Origin: a virus
Length of the DNA stretch: 58,930 nt
Virus record (IMG/VR): IMGVR_UViG_3300021389_000024
Coordinates: 1 to 58,930 of that record
Strand: one strand, 5' to 3'
Shown: one piece after another, positions 36,500 through 46,503 of the stretch
Layout: every line of letters starts with the position of its first letter
How positions within the stretch are numbered: position 1 is the stretch's first letter
Made by a program: the position numbers and the translations under genes
The notes under the pieces: model-generated
The model's input: the letters and a program-made list of their open reading frames with translations, nothing else
The model's database searches: none
What the model was told of the DNA's origin: nothing

Positions 36500-36723
36500 A
36501 TAGTGGTGGTTGAACGAATCAGAAAGTTCTGCACCACTATTAATGGGATATAAAGGGCTAGGCCAGAACCGATGACCCCTTTATGTCGCCCGTTGTCCGT
36601 GAACCGTTAACCACGTGAAGGTTGCTGACCTAACAGCCATGTAGGGATGAAAAGCCCTACACTTTCTACCCTAGTTAACAACGCTCCCCTGTGCTAGGCA
36701 AGAAATAAAAATAACAGGGGAGC
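36500..36723 (+). ncRNA. Candidate structured non-coding RNA (A)
   Basis: The 252-base gene-free gap at 36496-36747 is packed with paired segments: ATAGTGGTG / CACCACTAT (36500 and 36532), an 11-bp GATATAAAGGG / CCCTTTATGTC (36547 and 36577, one G-T), TGTAGGG / CCCTACA (36640 and 36655), and GCTCCCCTGT / ACAGGGGAGC (36683 and 36714). CCTAG at 36670 can pair with CTAGG at 36694 in the last loop, or with CTAGG at 36558. The last hairpin is followed by ATTTAATTT and an AGGAGG. It could be a stable RNA, a leader or a processed 3' end. Confidence 0.55.
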
Positions 36724-36747
36724 ATTTAATTTCTATAGGAGGAAATT

Positions 36748-37257
36748 ATGGACATTACGTCAAGATACTACTCAGTCAAAGACAGAGTCAGGAGCGCATT
36801 TATATCTAAAACTAATGCTTTATCTAAAAAAATAGAGTATGTAAACGAACGCTTTAGCGTGGTTTTACGCAGTAATAGAAGACTAAAAGAAGATTTAGAT
36901 TACGAAGTTAATCGAGTTGATATTTTAGTTCATGAGTTGTCTCATTTAAAAGATAACTTTCAGCGTCTAATTGGTGAAAACAATTTGCGTCAAACCAATC
37001 AAATTAATGAGGCTGAAATACCCCGCTCTAATTTGCACGACGCTCATGCAATTATTAAGCGTCTAAAAGGAGATATTGATACTGAGTTTTATAACTATTA
37101 CGACAGCATGACTACTCCAGAAGAGCGTAGGTTGTATCATGCTATGCTTTCAGGTGTTAAATCTGCTTGTAATAATCTAGACACTGAAATCAGTGAAATA
37201 AAAAGTGGCAGACAAGATCAACTTGATGACGCTTGGTATGAATCAAGAGACGCTTAA
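36748..37257 (+). CDS. Coiled-coil early protein
   Basis: 169 aa, nearly all helical with long charged coiled coils (DYEVNRVDILVHELSHLKDNF, then IKRLKGDIDTEFYNYYDSM) and an acidic tail. An ideal SD (AGGAGGAAATT) lies right after the structured RNA region. No enzymatic motif is visible. It is followed by a terminator hairpin. The role is unknown; a scaffold-like or anti-host factor is possible. Confidence 0.55.
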   Translation: MDITSRYYSVKDRVRSAFISKTNALSKKIEYVNERFSVVLRSNRRLKEDLDYEVNRVDILVHELSHLKDNFQRLIGENNLRQTNQINEAEIPRSNLHDAHAIIKRLKGDIDTEFYNYYDSMTTPEERRLYHAMLSGVKSACNNLDTEISEIKSGRQDQLDDAWYESRDA

Positions 37258-37281: not shown

Positions 37282-37314
37282 TGGTAGTTATCCGCAAAAC
37301 TACCATATTTTTTT
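37282..37314 (+). terminator. Rho-independent terminator
   Basis: TGGTAGTT and AACTACCA pair perfectly (8 bp) around ATCCGCAA, followed by TATTTTTTT. It lies 25 bases after the coiled-coil gene. A small perfect repeat TTCTCC-CT-GGAGAA lies just upstream at 37262. Confidence 0.85.
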
Positions 37315-37335: not shown

Positions 37336-37737
37336 ATGAATGAAGTTAAATATTGTTTTGTTATTGATCCCCAAAAAGAGGAAATCAGAGTTGTAGATCT
37401 GCCTGGCGACAAGCTAGAGCTAGCTACTATTTATGATTTATTGGAGTGTGCTACTTTTGATGTGCACCCATTAACTGCAGATACTGATTTGTTTATTGAT
37501 GATGAAGGATTGCTTGTTGAAGAACAACGATTCTTTAGTATTGACAACAAGGTATTTGCCGGCAACGGTTTAATCGTTGGCGCTGTTAACGAAGAGGGAC
37601 ATTCAACCACCCCTACCTACCCCGATGATTTCTTACCTGTAACTTTTATGCCTAAAAGCTATCAAATGGAAATAACCGCGGATGATTTAAACATTGAAAT
37701 CAGGAGGTCAGATGACACAACATACCAAGAAGCTTGA
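37336..37737 (+). CDS. DUF3846-like early protein
   Basis: 133 aa from ATG 37336 (AGGAGT seven bases upstream). The pattern FVIDPQKEEIRVVDL, then LECATFDVHPL, LFIDDEGLLVEEQRFF and NGLIVGAVNEEGH fits the DUF3846 family, which occurs in phages and plasmids. Its biochemical role is unknown. It is acidic. Its end overlaps the next small gene by 26 bases. Confidence 0.62.
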   Translation: MNEVKYCFVIDPQKEEIRVVDLPGDKLELATIYDLLECATFDVHPLTADTDLFIDDEGLLVEEQRFFSIDNKVFAGNGLIVGAVNEEGHSTTPTYPDDFLPVTFMPKSYQMEITADDLNIEIRRSDDTTYQEA

Positions 37738-37882
37738 ACAACGAAGGAAGGAAATCGAACAAGAAAAAGCTAACAACACAATTGTTCAATGGGAATACCA
37801 AAAGGGTGGGGGGTTACATTTTAGAAAGGTAACTTACGCCAGCGGTAGAGTTGAGACTATTGAGTTTGGAAAAGAAAAGTAA
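37712..37882 (+). CDS. Small charged early protein
   Basis: 56 aa from ATG 37712, with AGGAGG five bases upstream. The N-terminal half is a Lys/Arg/Glu helix (KKLEQRRKEIEQEKANN) and the C-terminal half looks like short strands (LHFRKVTYASGRVETIEF). It resembles small nucleic-acid binding proteins in shape, but no family is recognised. A long structured gap follows. Confidence 0.5.
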   Translation: MTQHTKKLEQRRKEIEQEKANNTIVQWEYQKGGGLHFRKVTYASGRVETIEFGKEK

Positions 37883-37884
37883 TT

Positions 37885-38346
37885 GACCGGGCGGTCGCAA
37901 GAGCTCACAAACTAGAACAGACATTGCAGCGATTCTATATTAAGCCCCCGATATTACTTTTTTAGGCAAAGGGTTTATTTTATTCCCCTTCATAATATCT
38001 TTGAAGTGCAGGTATTGCCAAAAGCACTTCACTTACAACATGGGTTTTGATTGGTAGTATACAACAAGCAGTCACTGAGTAGCCAACTGCACAAAACCCT
38101 CCTTTTTCGATGCAAGACTGGCAAGGTTAAGCAGTATTCGCCTAGTGATACTGGAAAAAGATAATGAAGCGCCAGCTCTTGTGCTCTTGTAAAGCTTCAT
38201 TATTGCACTAGGCACTATACAAAATTCCTCGCGGGATAGGGGGTTACACCAAAATAGAAATGACTAGCGTGTGTAATCAAATAGTCTAGGCAGGTAGCTC
38301 CTGCAATGTCCATTGTTCCCCCGCTTTTTAACACACAGGAGGTGTG
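37885..38346 (+). ncRNA. Candidate structured leader RNA (B) before the MoxR island
   Basis: The gene-free gap at 37883-38349 (467 bases) has nested perfect stems: GACCG / CGGTC (37885); TGAAGTGC / GCACTTCA (38002 and 38024); GGGTTTTG / CAAAACCC (38042 and 38092) enclosing GCAGT / ACTGC; GCCTAGTG / CACTAGGC (38140 and 38206) enclosing ATAATGAAGC / GCTTCATTAT (38161 and 38194), whose loop holds two tandem GCTCTTGT. Then GGTTACAC / GTGTAATC (38242 and 38271), GACTA / TAGTC (38262 and 38282), GCAGG / CCTGC (38290 and 38300), and a final hairpin over the SD. No open frame fits it. Confidence 0.65.
38332..38346 (+). promoter_or_regulatory. SD-containing hairpin, CsrA-site-like and possible riboswitch platform
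   Basis: CACAC and GTGTG pair around the loop AGGAG, so the SD of the next gene lies in the loop and its last bases in the stem. CsrA sites typically present GGA in such a loop. GTGTGT at 38269-38274 could instead pair with ACACAC at 38331-38336 and release the SD, as in riboswitch expression platforms. Confidence 0.5.
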
Positions 38347-38349
38347 CTC

Positions 38350-38670
38350 ATGGAAATAGCCAATATTCATATACAAGTATCTGTTGATCCAGAAGAAGTT
38401 GTATGCAGAGAAAATGACTTTACAACTTTAAGTCAAGTTACTAAATATTGTTTAGCTTGGAAAAGTGATGTGCTTGAAGAACAAGATCTTGAAGCTCAAC
38501 TTGTGCATGTTATACGTACTTACAGAGAACACAATCAATTATCTAATAATGTTCCACTACTAGTAGGGGTGTGGTTTGAAACCCCATTTCCAGAACCCCA
38601 AATTGAGTGGGAACCATTATTAAACACACAACCTGATTTACGAGTCATACAAGGAGGTAAAAATGACTAA
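38350..38670 (+). CDS. First gene of the MoxR island, unknown function
   Basis: 106 aa from ATG 38350; GTG 38344 is an alternative, but the AGGAGG seven bases before 38350 decides. There is no recognised family; the N-terminus reads IANIHIQVSVDPEEV and the centre has Leu/Ala helices. The 5' leader is the structured RNA described above, so translation may be regulated. It overlaps the next gene by eight bases. Confidence 0.55.
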   Translation: MEIANIHIQVSVDPEEVVCRENDFTTLSQVTKYCLAWKSDVLEEQDLEAQLVHVIRTYREHNQLSNNVPLLVGVWFETPFPEPQIEWEPLLNTQPDLRVIQGGKND

Positions 38671-38851: not shown

Positions 38852-38877
38852 GCTTACTCAAATCTATAGGAGGATTT

Positions 38878-39900
38878 ATGAACAACATTAACCCAAACGA
38901 TCTTAAACAAGAGATCAAAGATAACATCCGTACAGGACTTAACACCATGATATGGGGTGGGCCAGGTATTGGTAAGTCAGATATACCACAACAGGTAGCT
39001 GATGAACTAGATATACCTTTGCTTGACTTTCGTGCCAACTTATTCGACCCAGTCGATGTGCGTGGCATACCTCACATTATGCAAGAACAAGAAACAGGGA
39101 AGCGTTTTACACGTTGGGCAGTGCCTGATGTGTTTCCTATTGCATCACGTGATGGCGAAACGGGAATTCTCTTCATCGACGAATTGCCAACTGCACCACC
39201 AGCTACGCAGAACGCTTTCCTGCAACTCTTGTTAACTCGACAAATTGGCGATTATGAAATGCCAGTTGGCTGGTCAATTGTTGCCGCAGGTAACAGACTG
39301 ACTGACTCAGCTGCTGTATTCCAAATGCCAACACCAGTACGTAATCGTCTATTGCATTACGAACTCGAAGCAAGCATTGATGACTGGGTTGAATGGGCTT
39401 TCAAAAATGGTATTAACTCAGAAGTTATTGGCTTCTTACGTTACAGACCTGGTTTACTTAACAGTTTCAAAGCTGACGAATATGCATTCCCAACACCACG
39501 TTCGTGGGCATTTGTTGACAAAAAGCTAGCCAATCGACCGTCGACCGCCAACGACGATACATTGTTCTTTGGTGTCGCAGCGACAGTCGGCGACGGCCCA
39601 GCTGGCGAGTTTGTTGCTTACAAACAAATAGCTGACAAGCTACAAGATGTCGACGAACTTATCAAAGATCCTGGTAAATACAAGAAAGATGACAACCCAG
39701 CTGTCTTGTATGCACTTTCAACATCTATCGCCACCCGAGCGAGTGATGACACTCTCGAAAATATTATCAAAGTATGCAACAAACTCCCATCAGAGTTCCA
39801 AGTAATACTAATGAAAGGTATTTTTGCAATCAACAAAGACTTTATCAAGAATCAATTTTGTACTAAATGGATTCAAGATAATCACGGCTTATTATCATAG
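38878..39900 (+). CDS. MoxR-family AAA+ ATPase
   Basis: 340 aa. Walker A GGPGIGKS lies at ~24-31, Walker B GILFIDELP at ~96, sensor-type VAAGNR and an arginine-finger region PTPVRNRLLHYEL. This order and the inserted LLLTRQIGDYEMP segment mark MoxR AAA+ ATPases, which act as chaperones for partner proteins together with VWA-domain proteins. The VWA/metallopeptidase partner is encoded 1.2 kb downstream. It follows an AGGAGG SD. Confidence 0.88.
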   Translation: MNNINPNDLKQEIKDNIRTGLNTMIWGGPGIGKSDIPQQVADELDIPLLDFRANLFDPVDVRGIPHIMQEQETGKRFTRWAVPDVFPIASRDGETGILFIDELPTAPPATQNAFLQLLLTRQIGDYEMPVGWSIVAAGNRLTDSAAVFQMPTPVRNRLLHYELEASIDDWVEWAFKNGINSEVIGFLRYRPGLLNSFKADEYAFPTPRSWAFVDKKLANRPSTANDDTLFFGVAATVGDGPAGEFVAYKQIADKLQDVDELIKDPGKYKKDDNPAVLYALSTSIATRASDDTLENIIKVCNKLPSEFQVILMKGIFAINKDFIKNQFCTKWIQDNHGLLS

Positions 39901-44525: not shown

Positions 44526-46321
44526 ATTTATTATACTTAGACTTTGAAACTTATTACGACGTACAATTGTCCCTGACTAAAATGACAACTGTACAATACG
44601 TTAACCACCCTGATTTTAAAATATGGGGAGTAGGTTTAAAATTTAATGAGGGAAATACAGAGTGGTTTGGAGAAGACCAATACCAAGATGCTCTTGAACA
44701 AATACCCTGGGAAGAAACCGCAGTTGTATGTCACAACACTTTGTTTGATGCTTACATACTTACACAGTACCTGGGCTTTTACCCAGCGTACTACTACGAC
44801 ACCGCCTCCCTGAGTCGGGGCGTGTACCCAAATCAATCTGCACGACTAAAAGATGTAGCTGTCCGTTGTTTTCCAAACGATGAAAGCTTACGTAAAGGAG
44901 AAGAACTTGTTAATGCCAAAGGCATACGTGATTTAGATCCTGACCTCGATGCACAAATTGGTGGCTATTGTATACAAGATGTAGATATAACTTATCAGAT
45001 ATATCACAAAATGATGGAAGGTTATCCACAAACTGAGTTAGATATTATCGATATGACTGTGCGTATGTTTGTAGAACCCAAGCTTATCTTAGATAAAGAA
45101 ATGCTTATTGCACACAAAGAAAAAATTAAACAAGAAACAGCACAGGCAATTGAAGATTCTGGTACAACCCGCGAAATTATGGCTTCGCAACAAAAGTTTG
45201 CACAGTATTTAGAAGAACTTGGCATTACCGTACCAACGAAAAAAAGTCCTACAACAGGCCAACAAATTCCTGCGTTTAGTAAAACTGACTCTGCATATAT
45301 ACAAATGCAAAACATGTATCCTCAATACAAACACCTTTGGGACGGTAGAGAAGCAGTAAAATCACGTATTGAAGAAACTCGCGCACAAAGATTTTTAGAA
45401 AGCACTAACCCTGATGGCACTTTTTCTGTACCGTTACGTTATTACGCAGCACACACTGGCCGTTTTGGTGGTACAGAAAGTATTAATTTACAAAACTTAC
45501 CCAGAGGATCTGCATTACGTACAGCAGTTATGGCTCCTGAAGGACAACAACTATATGTTGTAGATTTATCAAACATCGAAGCTCGCATGCTTGCGTGGTT
45601 AGCTAAAGAAGCTGACTTACTTGATGCATTTGCAGCTGGGCGTGACGTATACAGTGAGTTTGCATCTCAAATATATGGTAGACCTGTAACAAAAGCTGAC
45701 AAATTAGAACGTTACGTAGGTAAGACCGCTATTTTAGGTTTAGGTTATGGCATGGGCCCTGATAAATTTAGAGACACTCTTAAAAATGGGTCACCATCTG
45801 TTGATGTAGGAGAAAGTACAGCTATATCAATTGTTGCCCAGTACCGTGCTATGTACCCAAATATCCCCAGGCTTTGGAATGCATGCAAACAAGCACTATT
45901 TACAATGCGCCACACAGGTAACCCAGAAGGGCGACCGTATGGACCCCTGATTATTAAACCAGGTTGCATACAACTACCTAATGATATGTTCTTAAAATAT
46001 CCAGAACTAGATTTTATTGATGGTAATTTTATGTACAACTCAGGTAAAACAATGGTAAAAACGTATGGTGCAAGACTAACAGAAAACATTGTACAAGCTC
46101 TGGCCCGTATAGTTATTGTAGAACAAATGTTAGAAGTACAAGCTATGCCTGAAGTTCAAGTTGTTTTGCAAGTACACGATGAAATTATATCAATTGGATC
46201 TAATGTAGATTGTGACAAGACACTAGATAAAATACTAGCTATAATGAAAACACCTCCTTTTTGGTGTTCAGATTTACCACTAGATGCTGAAGGGGGATAC
46301 AGCCAACGATATGACAAATGA
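44522..46321 (+). CDS. polA: Family A DNA polymerase with 3'-5' exonuclease
   Basis: 599 aa from ATG 44522 (AAAGGAAA upstream). The exonuclease has LDFET, CHNTLFDAYIL and YCIQDVDITYQIY as motifs I-III. The polymerase has motif A VVDLSNIEARMLAWLA, motif B RYVGKTAILGLGYGMG and motif C QVHDEI. The position matching E. coli Phe762 is Leu405, so the enzyme belongs to the Leu762 group. There is no 5'-3' exonuclease. It replicates the phage genome with the primase-helicase two genes downstream. Confidence 0.95.
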   Translation: MNLLYLDFETYYDVQLSLTKMTTVQYVNHPDFKIWGVGLKFNEGNTEWFGEDQYQDALEQIPWEETAVVCHNTLFDAYILTQYLGFYPAYYYDTASLSRGVYPNQSARLKDVAVRCFPNDESLRKGEELVNAKGIRDLDPDLDAQIGGYCIQDVDITYQIYHKMMEGYPQTELDIIDMTVRMFVEPKLILDKEMLIAHKEKIKQETAQAIEDSGTTREIMASQQKFAQYLEELGITVPTKKSPTTGQQIPAFSKTDSAYIQMQNMYPQYKHLWDGREAVKSRIEETRAQRFLESTNPDGTFSVPLRYYAAHTGRFGGTESINLQNLPRGSALRTAVMAPEGQQLYVVDLSNIEARMLAWLAKEADLLDAFAAGRDVYSEFASQIYGRPVTKADKLERYVGKTAILGLGYGMGPDKFRDTLKNGSPSVDVGESTAISIVAQYRAMYPNIPRLWNACKQALFTMRHTGNPEGRPYGPLIIKPGCIQLPNDMFLKYPELDFIDGNFMYNSGKTMVKTYGARLTENIVQALARIVIVEQMLEVQAMPEVQVVLQVHDEIISIGSNVDCDKTLDKILAIMKTPPFWCSDLPLDAEGGYSQRYDK

Positions 46322-46503
46322 GCAATCTAGTATTAACAAGACGGAAACATGACTCAATAGTTTTACACCAGGATGGTGAAGAACTATGTGTTATTACCGT
46401 TACTGCATTAGGACCTAAGCAAACTAAGCTAGCTTTTAATGCAAAAGAGTCTGTTAAAATAGATAGACACGAAGTATACGAAGCTAAACAAGCTAACAAT
46501 TAA
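46318..46503 (+). CDS. csrA: CsrA-family RNA-binding translational regulator
   Basis: 61 aa with the full CsrA pattern: LVLTRRKHDSIVL at the N-terminus, then VITVTALGPKQTKLAF and SVKIDRHEVYEAK. The RNA-contacting residues (Leu4, Arg8/Arg9 in LTRR, and Arg50 in IDRHEVY) are present. CsrA dimers bind GGA in hairpin loops near ribosome binding sites to repress or activate translation. It overlaps the polymerase stop by ATGA. Its targets may include phage leaders (see the 38332 hairpin) or host genes. Confidence 0.88.
   Translation: MSNLVLTRRKHDSIVLHQDGEELCVITVTALGPKQTKLAFNAKESVKIDRHEVYEAKQANN

Follow-up and report, generated by a model that had tools for sequence, protein, structure and literature searches.

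A modular array of pseudoknotted RNA elements at the stop codon of a phage gene, possibly a barrier to RNA decay

The window, that is, the whole stretch of DNA analysed, is the IMG/VR record IMGVR_UViG_3300021389_000024 of an uncultured phage (58,930 bases), and the interval under study comprises positions 37885-38346. In the ORF list it is flanked on the + strand by a small ORF of 57 aa (37709-37882), whose stop codon anchors the array of structures described here, and by a gene of 106 aa without a family (38350-38670), which is followed by a 62-aa ORF and then by a MoxR-type ATPase gene (38878-39900). An earlier sequence-only reading of the DNA had called the interval gene-free, and this was borne out: the longest ORF fully within it has only 47 aa and lies on the minus strand, and no conserved small protein was found. 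A search for tRNA and tmRNA returned none, and no toxin family was present among the scanned window proteins near the array. The TerL protein had matches only in two MAG contigs of low coverage and, at 56%, in a gammaproteobacterium (Parendozoicomonas).

All of the stems named in the sequence-only reading were found at their coordinates, and the stems are real and above chance. Perfect stems of at least 8 bp within 90 nt numbered 4, compared with a mean of 0.40 in dinucleotide shuffles (0 of 300 as high), and those of at least 7 bp numbered 6, compared with 1.67 (1 of 300 as high). An advantage in folding energy over dinucleotide shuffles, which had been proposed as a check, did not appear, the minimum free energy of the interval being no better than theirs (z -1.29, with 13 of 100 folding equally well; z -1.45 for the minus strand). 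The energy is unremarkable because several key helices are pseudoknots, which lie outside the model of the energy program, and single-sequence folding is misleading for this interval. Rfam, likewise suggested as a check, yielded no family: the whole window had no match at the gathering threshold, and the region searched at E up to 10 gave chance-level snoRNA and lncRNA matches only.

Thirteen IMG/VR loci were gathered via the MoxR protein and their intervals compared, and the modules E1, E2 and E3b were then sought in other phages by pattern scans of viral contigs. Homologous intervals differed by insertion or deletion of entire modules. The order in the window is E0-E1-E3a-E3b-E2-SD hairpin, whereas it is E0-E1-E2-SD in L002 and L013, E0-E1-SD in L007, and E0-E1-E1′-SD with an extra gene in L004; L003 possesses the same upstream and downstream genes as the window and retains the SD hairpin without any array. 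Such comparison demonstrates, at the level of sequence, the independence of the modules, and the interval as predicted from it links separable RNA modules into a chain, most of them with relatives elsewhere. The small gene added in L004 (3077-3460 of that locus) brings a further SD hairpin with it and separates the E1 tandem from the 38350-type gene.

The first module, E0 (37873-37963), consists of a closing helix, P0, and inner helices. P0 is an 11-bp helix formed by AGAAAAGTAAT (37873-37883) and ATTACTTTTTT (37953-37963), and it spans the TAA stop codon of the upstream ORF (37880-37882). The interval originally delimited is indeed structured, but its start at 37885 was misplaced, as the structure begins at 37873, within the last codons of the preceding ORF. 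Two inner helices are formed by GGGC (37889-37892) with GCCC (37944-37947) and by TCGC (37895-37898) with GCGA (37929-37932). The sequence of P0 varies between clades while its pairing is retained (AGAAGTAG/CTACTTTT in L023; TAAAGAATAGT/ACTATTCTTTA in L005, L007 and L008), and the inner helix GGGC/GCCC is changed to AGAC/GTCT in L002. A different E0 immediately ahead of E1 was seen in L028, L038, L046, L100 and L102; its hairpin loop, GCTAGG, can pair with CCTAGC past a second hairpin to give a loop-to-downstream pseudoknot.

Module E1 (37965-38030, + strand) is predicted to be a three-way junction of helices P1, P2 and P3 with a pseudoknot and a UUU loop. P1 pairs GGCA (37965-37968) with TGCC (38016-38019), P2 pairs AAGGG (37969-37973) with CCCTT (37986-37990), and P3 pairs ATATC (37995-37999) with GGTAT (38011-38015), while the 7-bp pseudoknot joins the loop of P3 (GAAGTGC, 38003-38009) to a downstream strand (GCACTTC, 38024-38030). 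The consensus of the commonest class reads GRCA (P1), P2 hairpin, short joiner, 5′ strand of P3, UUU, 7-nt arm, A, 3′ strand of P3, UGYC (P1), GAAA, 7-nt arm and ACC. A covariance model was built from P1, P2 and P3 only, leaving the pseudoknot out, and run over all loci; it matched the window at 37957-38034 (93.2 bits) and recovered 41 distinct copies in viral contigs. The pseudoknot was formed in 41 of these 41, with compensatory variants at 7 of its 7 pairs, although the copies are not independent events, because most loci were fetched by patterns that fix part of the pseudoknot arms, so that arm conservation is partly enforced, and because many are near relatives. Six sequences of the 5′ arm occur among the 41 copies (GAAGTGC, GAAGTGT, GAGGTGT, GAGGTAT, GAGATGT and AGAGCGC), and a seventh arm pair, GAAGCGC/GCGCTTC, was seen in L039 and L043. 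The unbiased part of the arm evidence consists of the degenerate positions and of class 3, AGAGCGC/GCGCTCT (L089, L098, L100 and L102), which was found by the model alone and by no pattern.

Covariation was counted on 12 representatives with their real flanks and on a register set by hand, because MAFFT over all 23 hand-registered copies misplaces P1 and P2. In the 12-sequence MAFFT alignment, 98.3% of cells were paired and 7 pairs had changed on both sides, a level of covariation reached by 0 of 500 shuffles; controls slid out of register were 36-43% paired. Across the 23 copies, the pairs of P1, P3 and the pseudoknot were all standard with the exception of one cell, omitted from the count, in L039a, which is one base shorter. 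P2 begins immediately after P1 throughout, apart from a one-base delay in L023a, and comprises 121 Watson-Crick pairs, compared with 74 ± 5 in shuffles. P3 retains U-G pairs in 15 of the 23 copies, which on the opposite strand would read as A-C mismatches, and comparison thus demonstrates the + strand as that of the predicted RNA as well as the fold itself. Among the unpaired letters, conservation mainly concerns a U-rich loop 1 and an A-rich linker, as is usual for a simple H-type pseudoknot, and no extended conserved motif resembling a ligand pocket was found in E1. This structural description of E1, drawn from aligned sequences, is almost certainly correct. The claim of a genuine, maintained structured RNA was therefore upheld by covariation among relatives, and this comparative evidence marks E1 as a new family of RNA that selection has maintained in phages; no description of such an element was found in the literature.

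Downstream of E1 lies E3a, a perfect stem of GGGTTTTG (38042-38049) and CAAAACCC (38092-38099) around GCAGT/ACTGC, which had been named correctly and for which no homolog was found. E3b (38132-38213) begins with the hairpin CAGTAT (38132-38137)/ATACTG (38148-38153), whose loop, GCCTAGTG (38140-38147), pairs with CACTAGGC (38206-38213), and a further hairpin, ATAATGAAGC (38161-38170)/GCTTCATTAT (38194-38203), is inserted between them. The nested 8- and 10-bp stems described previously are therefore both present, but simple nesting does not hold, as the outer stem uses the CAGTAT/ATACTG loop and is a pseudoknot. E3b has relatives in the phage contigs L127 and L128 (79% identity over 95 nt), with CAGTAT/ATACTG and GCCTAGTG/CACTAGGC identical and the inserted hairpin changed to GTAGTGAAG/CTTCACTAT, that is, by one compensatory and one G-U change.

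The last module, E2 (38224-38329), follows a first hairpin, ATTCC (38224-38228)/GGGAT (38233-38237), with helix A, GGGGG (38239-38243)/CCCCC (38318-38322), which encloses an H-type pseudoknot of helix B, TACAC (38245-38249)/GTGTG (38269-38273), and helix C, GACTA (38262-38266)/TAGTC (38282-38286), as well as a variable hairpin D, GCAGG (38290-38294)/CCTGC (38300-38304), and it ends with GC-TTTTT. The covariance model of E2 matched the window at 38223-38328 (102.9 bits). In 8 distinct copies 96.9% of pairs were standard, 4 pairs had changed on both sides, and covariation exceeded that of 500 of 500 shuffles. The case is weaker than that for E1 because helix C hardly varies, and comparison supports the predicted folds of E2 and P0 less strongly than that of E1. 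E2 was seen only in the phage clan of the window, with one occurrence at another locus (L075). GACTA/TAGTC recalls P7 of a group I intron, a candidate rejected as P4-P6 are absent and Rfam has no match; an HDV-like fold was also rejected, its helix order not matching.

Separate from the array is the hairpin that carries the SD of the downstream gene in its loop, as the sequence-only reading had described: CACAC (38332-38336), loop AGGAG, GTGTG (38342-38346). It is retained in L003, where the array is absent, and reads TACAC-AGGAG-GTGTA, a compensatory change, in L007. CsrA/RsmA sites are hairpins with GGA in the loop, and CsrA sites place the SD GGAG in or next to a hairpin loop. The SD hairpin resembles these and the phage itself encodes CsrA (46318-46503; Pfam PF02599, E 6e-10), as do seven of 15 other virus records searched, but the likeness is confined to this hairpin. 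The array was considered as a CsrA sponge and rejected, its GGA loops being too few. For several early-region genes, a perfect hairpin holds the SD GGAG within its loop or next to it (36730-36748, 38332-38346 and 38860-38878), namely TAATTTCT-ATAGGA-GGAAATTA ahead of 36748 and AAATCT-ATAGGA-GGATTT ahead of 38878 in addition to the one above.

E1 occurs in unrelated phages. The window clan has no proteins in common with group B of the E1 carriers, only TerL (34%) in common with group C, and only one small protein (49%), DUF3310, in common with group D, and groups B, C and D are interrelated to varying degrees. This near-absence of common proteins suggests that E1 was either exchanged independently of genes or retained while all else diverged. 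Tandem E1 copies were found in L004, L023, L034, L039, L042 and L043. The E1 core pattern occurred in none of 84,980 bacterial and archaeal genomes, and blastn with E1 (two class 1 copies and one of class 2) and E2 against 50,697 phage isolates gave chance-level matches only. A search with the R1 model of the genome contigs linked through TerL, the first 50 kb of an Aeromonas phage and two Pelagibacter phages gave nothing below E 0.03.

The position of E1 relative to genes is consistent. An upstream ORF could be called for 39 of the 41 copies, and all 39 follow the stop codon of a same-strand ORF; the two others are a second tandem copy and a copy close to a contig end. P1 mostly lies 45-120 nt beyond the stop codon (83 nt in the window as well as in several of its close relatives), and second tandem copies lie 140-160 nt beyond it; the 8 nt called automatically in L112 disagrees with the stop context, TAATCGCGAACAGG, that its class shows. 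In 8 contigs (L028, L029, L038, L046, L089, L098, L100 and L102) the gene that comes next is convergent, with its stop codon a few bases off, and L069, L070, L091 and L102 possess the same upstream gene and E0-E1 followed by different genes. Comparison thus demonstrates the post-stop position of the predicted element and, with the next gene convergent or variable, suggests that E1 is part of the preceding gene's 3′ UTR, which we consider very probable from these gene arrangements.

This position bears on the proposal, made in the sequence-only reading, of a riboswitch-like leader and expression platform for the 38350-MoxR operon. The array does precede the operon and its SD-in-loop hairpin, and GTGTGT (38269-38274) and ACACAC (38331-38336) are both there, so that two alternative pairings are possible in the window sequence. 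However, E1 goes with the upstream gene and is followed by convergent genes in the eight contigs, and the pairing on which mutually exclusive states would depend is not conserved among relatives, being 6 bp only in the window and L013, 5 bp in L075, 3-4 bp in L002, L017 and L008, and 0 in L005 and L074, whereas the competing helix B is kept through compensatory changes. A conserved ligand-like core and an Rfam family are also lacking. As the pairing is unconserved, helix B is selected, and L003 with both neighbouring genes presumably expresses the downstream one without the array, a riboswitch or attenuator leader is very unlikely. The chief competing explanation is termination, given the U-tracts found after many E1 copies: the modules would be intrinsic terminators elaborated by pseudoknots, each terminal one stopping transcription at its own U-tract. 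About half of the distinct listed E1 copies are closely trailed by a run of at least 4 T, E2 ends with a GC helix before its GC-TTTTT, and termination would be expected in the convergent contexts, of which there are several. On the other hand, a scan of 37885-38346 on the + strand for a GC-rich stem with an immediate U-tract found none, the stem on the 5′ side of the U-tract is formed by a pseudoknot arm and set off by a short spacer, and U-tracts are absent where E2 follows E1, after the E1 of the window and after the first member of the tandems in L039, L042 and L043. A + strand scan for sigma-70-like promoters, with phage-type promoters outside its scope, likewise found none between the array and the MoxR genes, and we regard termination as unlikely.

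An RNA that is bound by protein or acts in trans, whether as a landing site for an RNA-binding protein of phage or host, a 3′-UTR-derived sRNA or a decoy, for instance an RNA that mimics the antitoxin of a type III toxin-antitoxin defence, would suit the spread of E1 among unrelated phages, and 3′-UTR-derived sRNAs are common in bacteria (PMC9438474). Its small tandem pseudoknots resemble type III antitoxin RNAs (ToxI), for which phage carriage is possible, phage PhiTE having escaped ToxIN using pseudo-ToxI mimics (PMC3475682). E1, by contrast, is present in one or two dissimilar copies rather than numerous identical repeats, has no Rfam match and, among the scanned window proteins near it, no toxin family, and its tight link to the stop codon suggests action in cis, leaving such a role distinctly improbable. 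A new class of self-cleaving ribozyme setting mRNA ends would also be small, pseudoknotted, intergenic and phage-borne, as several ribozyme classes are, but the conserved unpaired letters are few beyond the U-rich loop and the A-rich linker, and the freedom of all pseudoknot pairs to change leaves little for a catalytic core; we give this reading little credence. Least credible, with the riboswitch, is an element acting as DNA, with palindromes for recombination, packaging or module exchange. Exchange points do fall at module boundaries (L069 versus L070; presence or absence in L002, L003 and L007), yet G-U pairs are conserved on one strand only, the pairing changes obey RNA rules, and the strand is constant relative to the upstream gene.

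The explanation we favour, and hold tentatively, is that the interval is a modular 3′-UTR or intercistronic array of pseudoknotted elements, anchored at the stop codon of the phage gene before it, which would act as a barrier to RNA decay. Once the ribosome departs from the stop codon, P0 and the pseudoknots would fold and serve as mechanical barriers to exonucleases; where the mRNA is cut or terminated nearby, a stable, defined end might result, and the half-lives of the adjoining cistrons would be uncoupled. For E1 in particular, a mechanical block that sets or protects message ends is a reasonable though uncertain proposal, which we infer from its H-type conserved positions, its helix layout, its tandem use and its attachment to stop codons. 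The U4-U7 runs after many copies, which also suit termination, count against the barrier reading, and the array is not essential in L003, which lacks it.

Compared by helix layout only, E1 resembles the flavivirus exonuclease-resistant RNA (xrRNA): both have a three-way junction, in E1 kept at P1, P2 and P3 through compensatory changes; loop L3 pairs with a strand just 3′ of P1 in 41 of 41 copies; and the element is located in a 3′ UTR with tandem copies. The 7 bp of its pseudoknot are within the 2-7 bp reported for xrRNAs (PMC5760640, PMC8571300). A flaviviral xrRNA blocks even the bacterial RNase J1 in vitro, suggesting that such a fold can serve as a general block (PMC5760640). Because E1 has this layout, a 5′-to-3′ block (RNase J type) is as plausible as a 3′-to-5′ one (PNPase/RNase R type). 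The differences are that E1 lacks an Rfam match and that its carriers are DNA phages, not RNA viruses. An xrRNA also has a conserved junction C and a ring made by pairing of its 5′-end nucleotides with the junction, a 2-nt interaction that would be indistinguishable from chance in the E1 sequences. That E1 might be the first exonuclease-resistant RNA of DNA bacteriophages, halting host exonucleases in the manner of an xrRNA and yielding stable 3′-UTR RNAs during infection, is a bolder proposal by analogy that we consider doubtful. REP/BIME elements are repeated extragenic stabilisers after stop codons that can stall 3′-to-5′ exonucleases. The array is similarly repeated, extragenic and post-stop, but those are plain chromosomal hairpins, whereas its elements are phage-borne, covarying pseudoknots. 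GOLLD and ROOL are likewise long, heavily structured phage non-coding RNAs; they are single large folds, however, in contrast to small modules gained and lost independently, and the array has no Rfam match (PMC12286853).

If E1 does block decay, DNA phages would have evolved the mechanical trick of flaviviruses, and a small stabiliser of bacterial mRNAs would be available for testing. Otherwise, the array still shows that pseudoknotted RNA elements can be put together as modules in the 3′ UTRs of phages, which protein-based annotation misses. As an RNA family E1 is new, with compensatory changes at all pseudoknot pairs, carriers that have almost no proteins in common, and a core pattern absent from the bacterial and archaeal genomes searched.

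Two further structures lie upstream of the array. At 36585-36665 there is a conserved structured module with the hairpin GTAGGG-ATGAAAAG-CCCTAC, about 77-89% identical in many relatives and changed to GCAGGG/CCCTGC in L002 and GTGGGG/CCCCAC in L025; a module of this type stands immediately ahead of an E1 in L002 and L005, though not in the window. At 37282-37305, between two same-strand genes, a terminator-like hairpin, TGGTAGTT-ATCCGCAA-AACTACCA, is followed by TATTTTTTTG.
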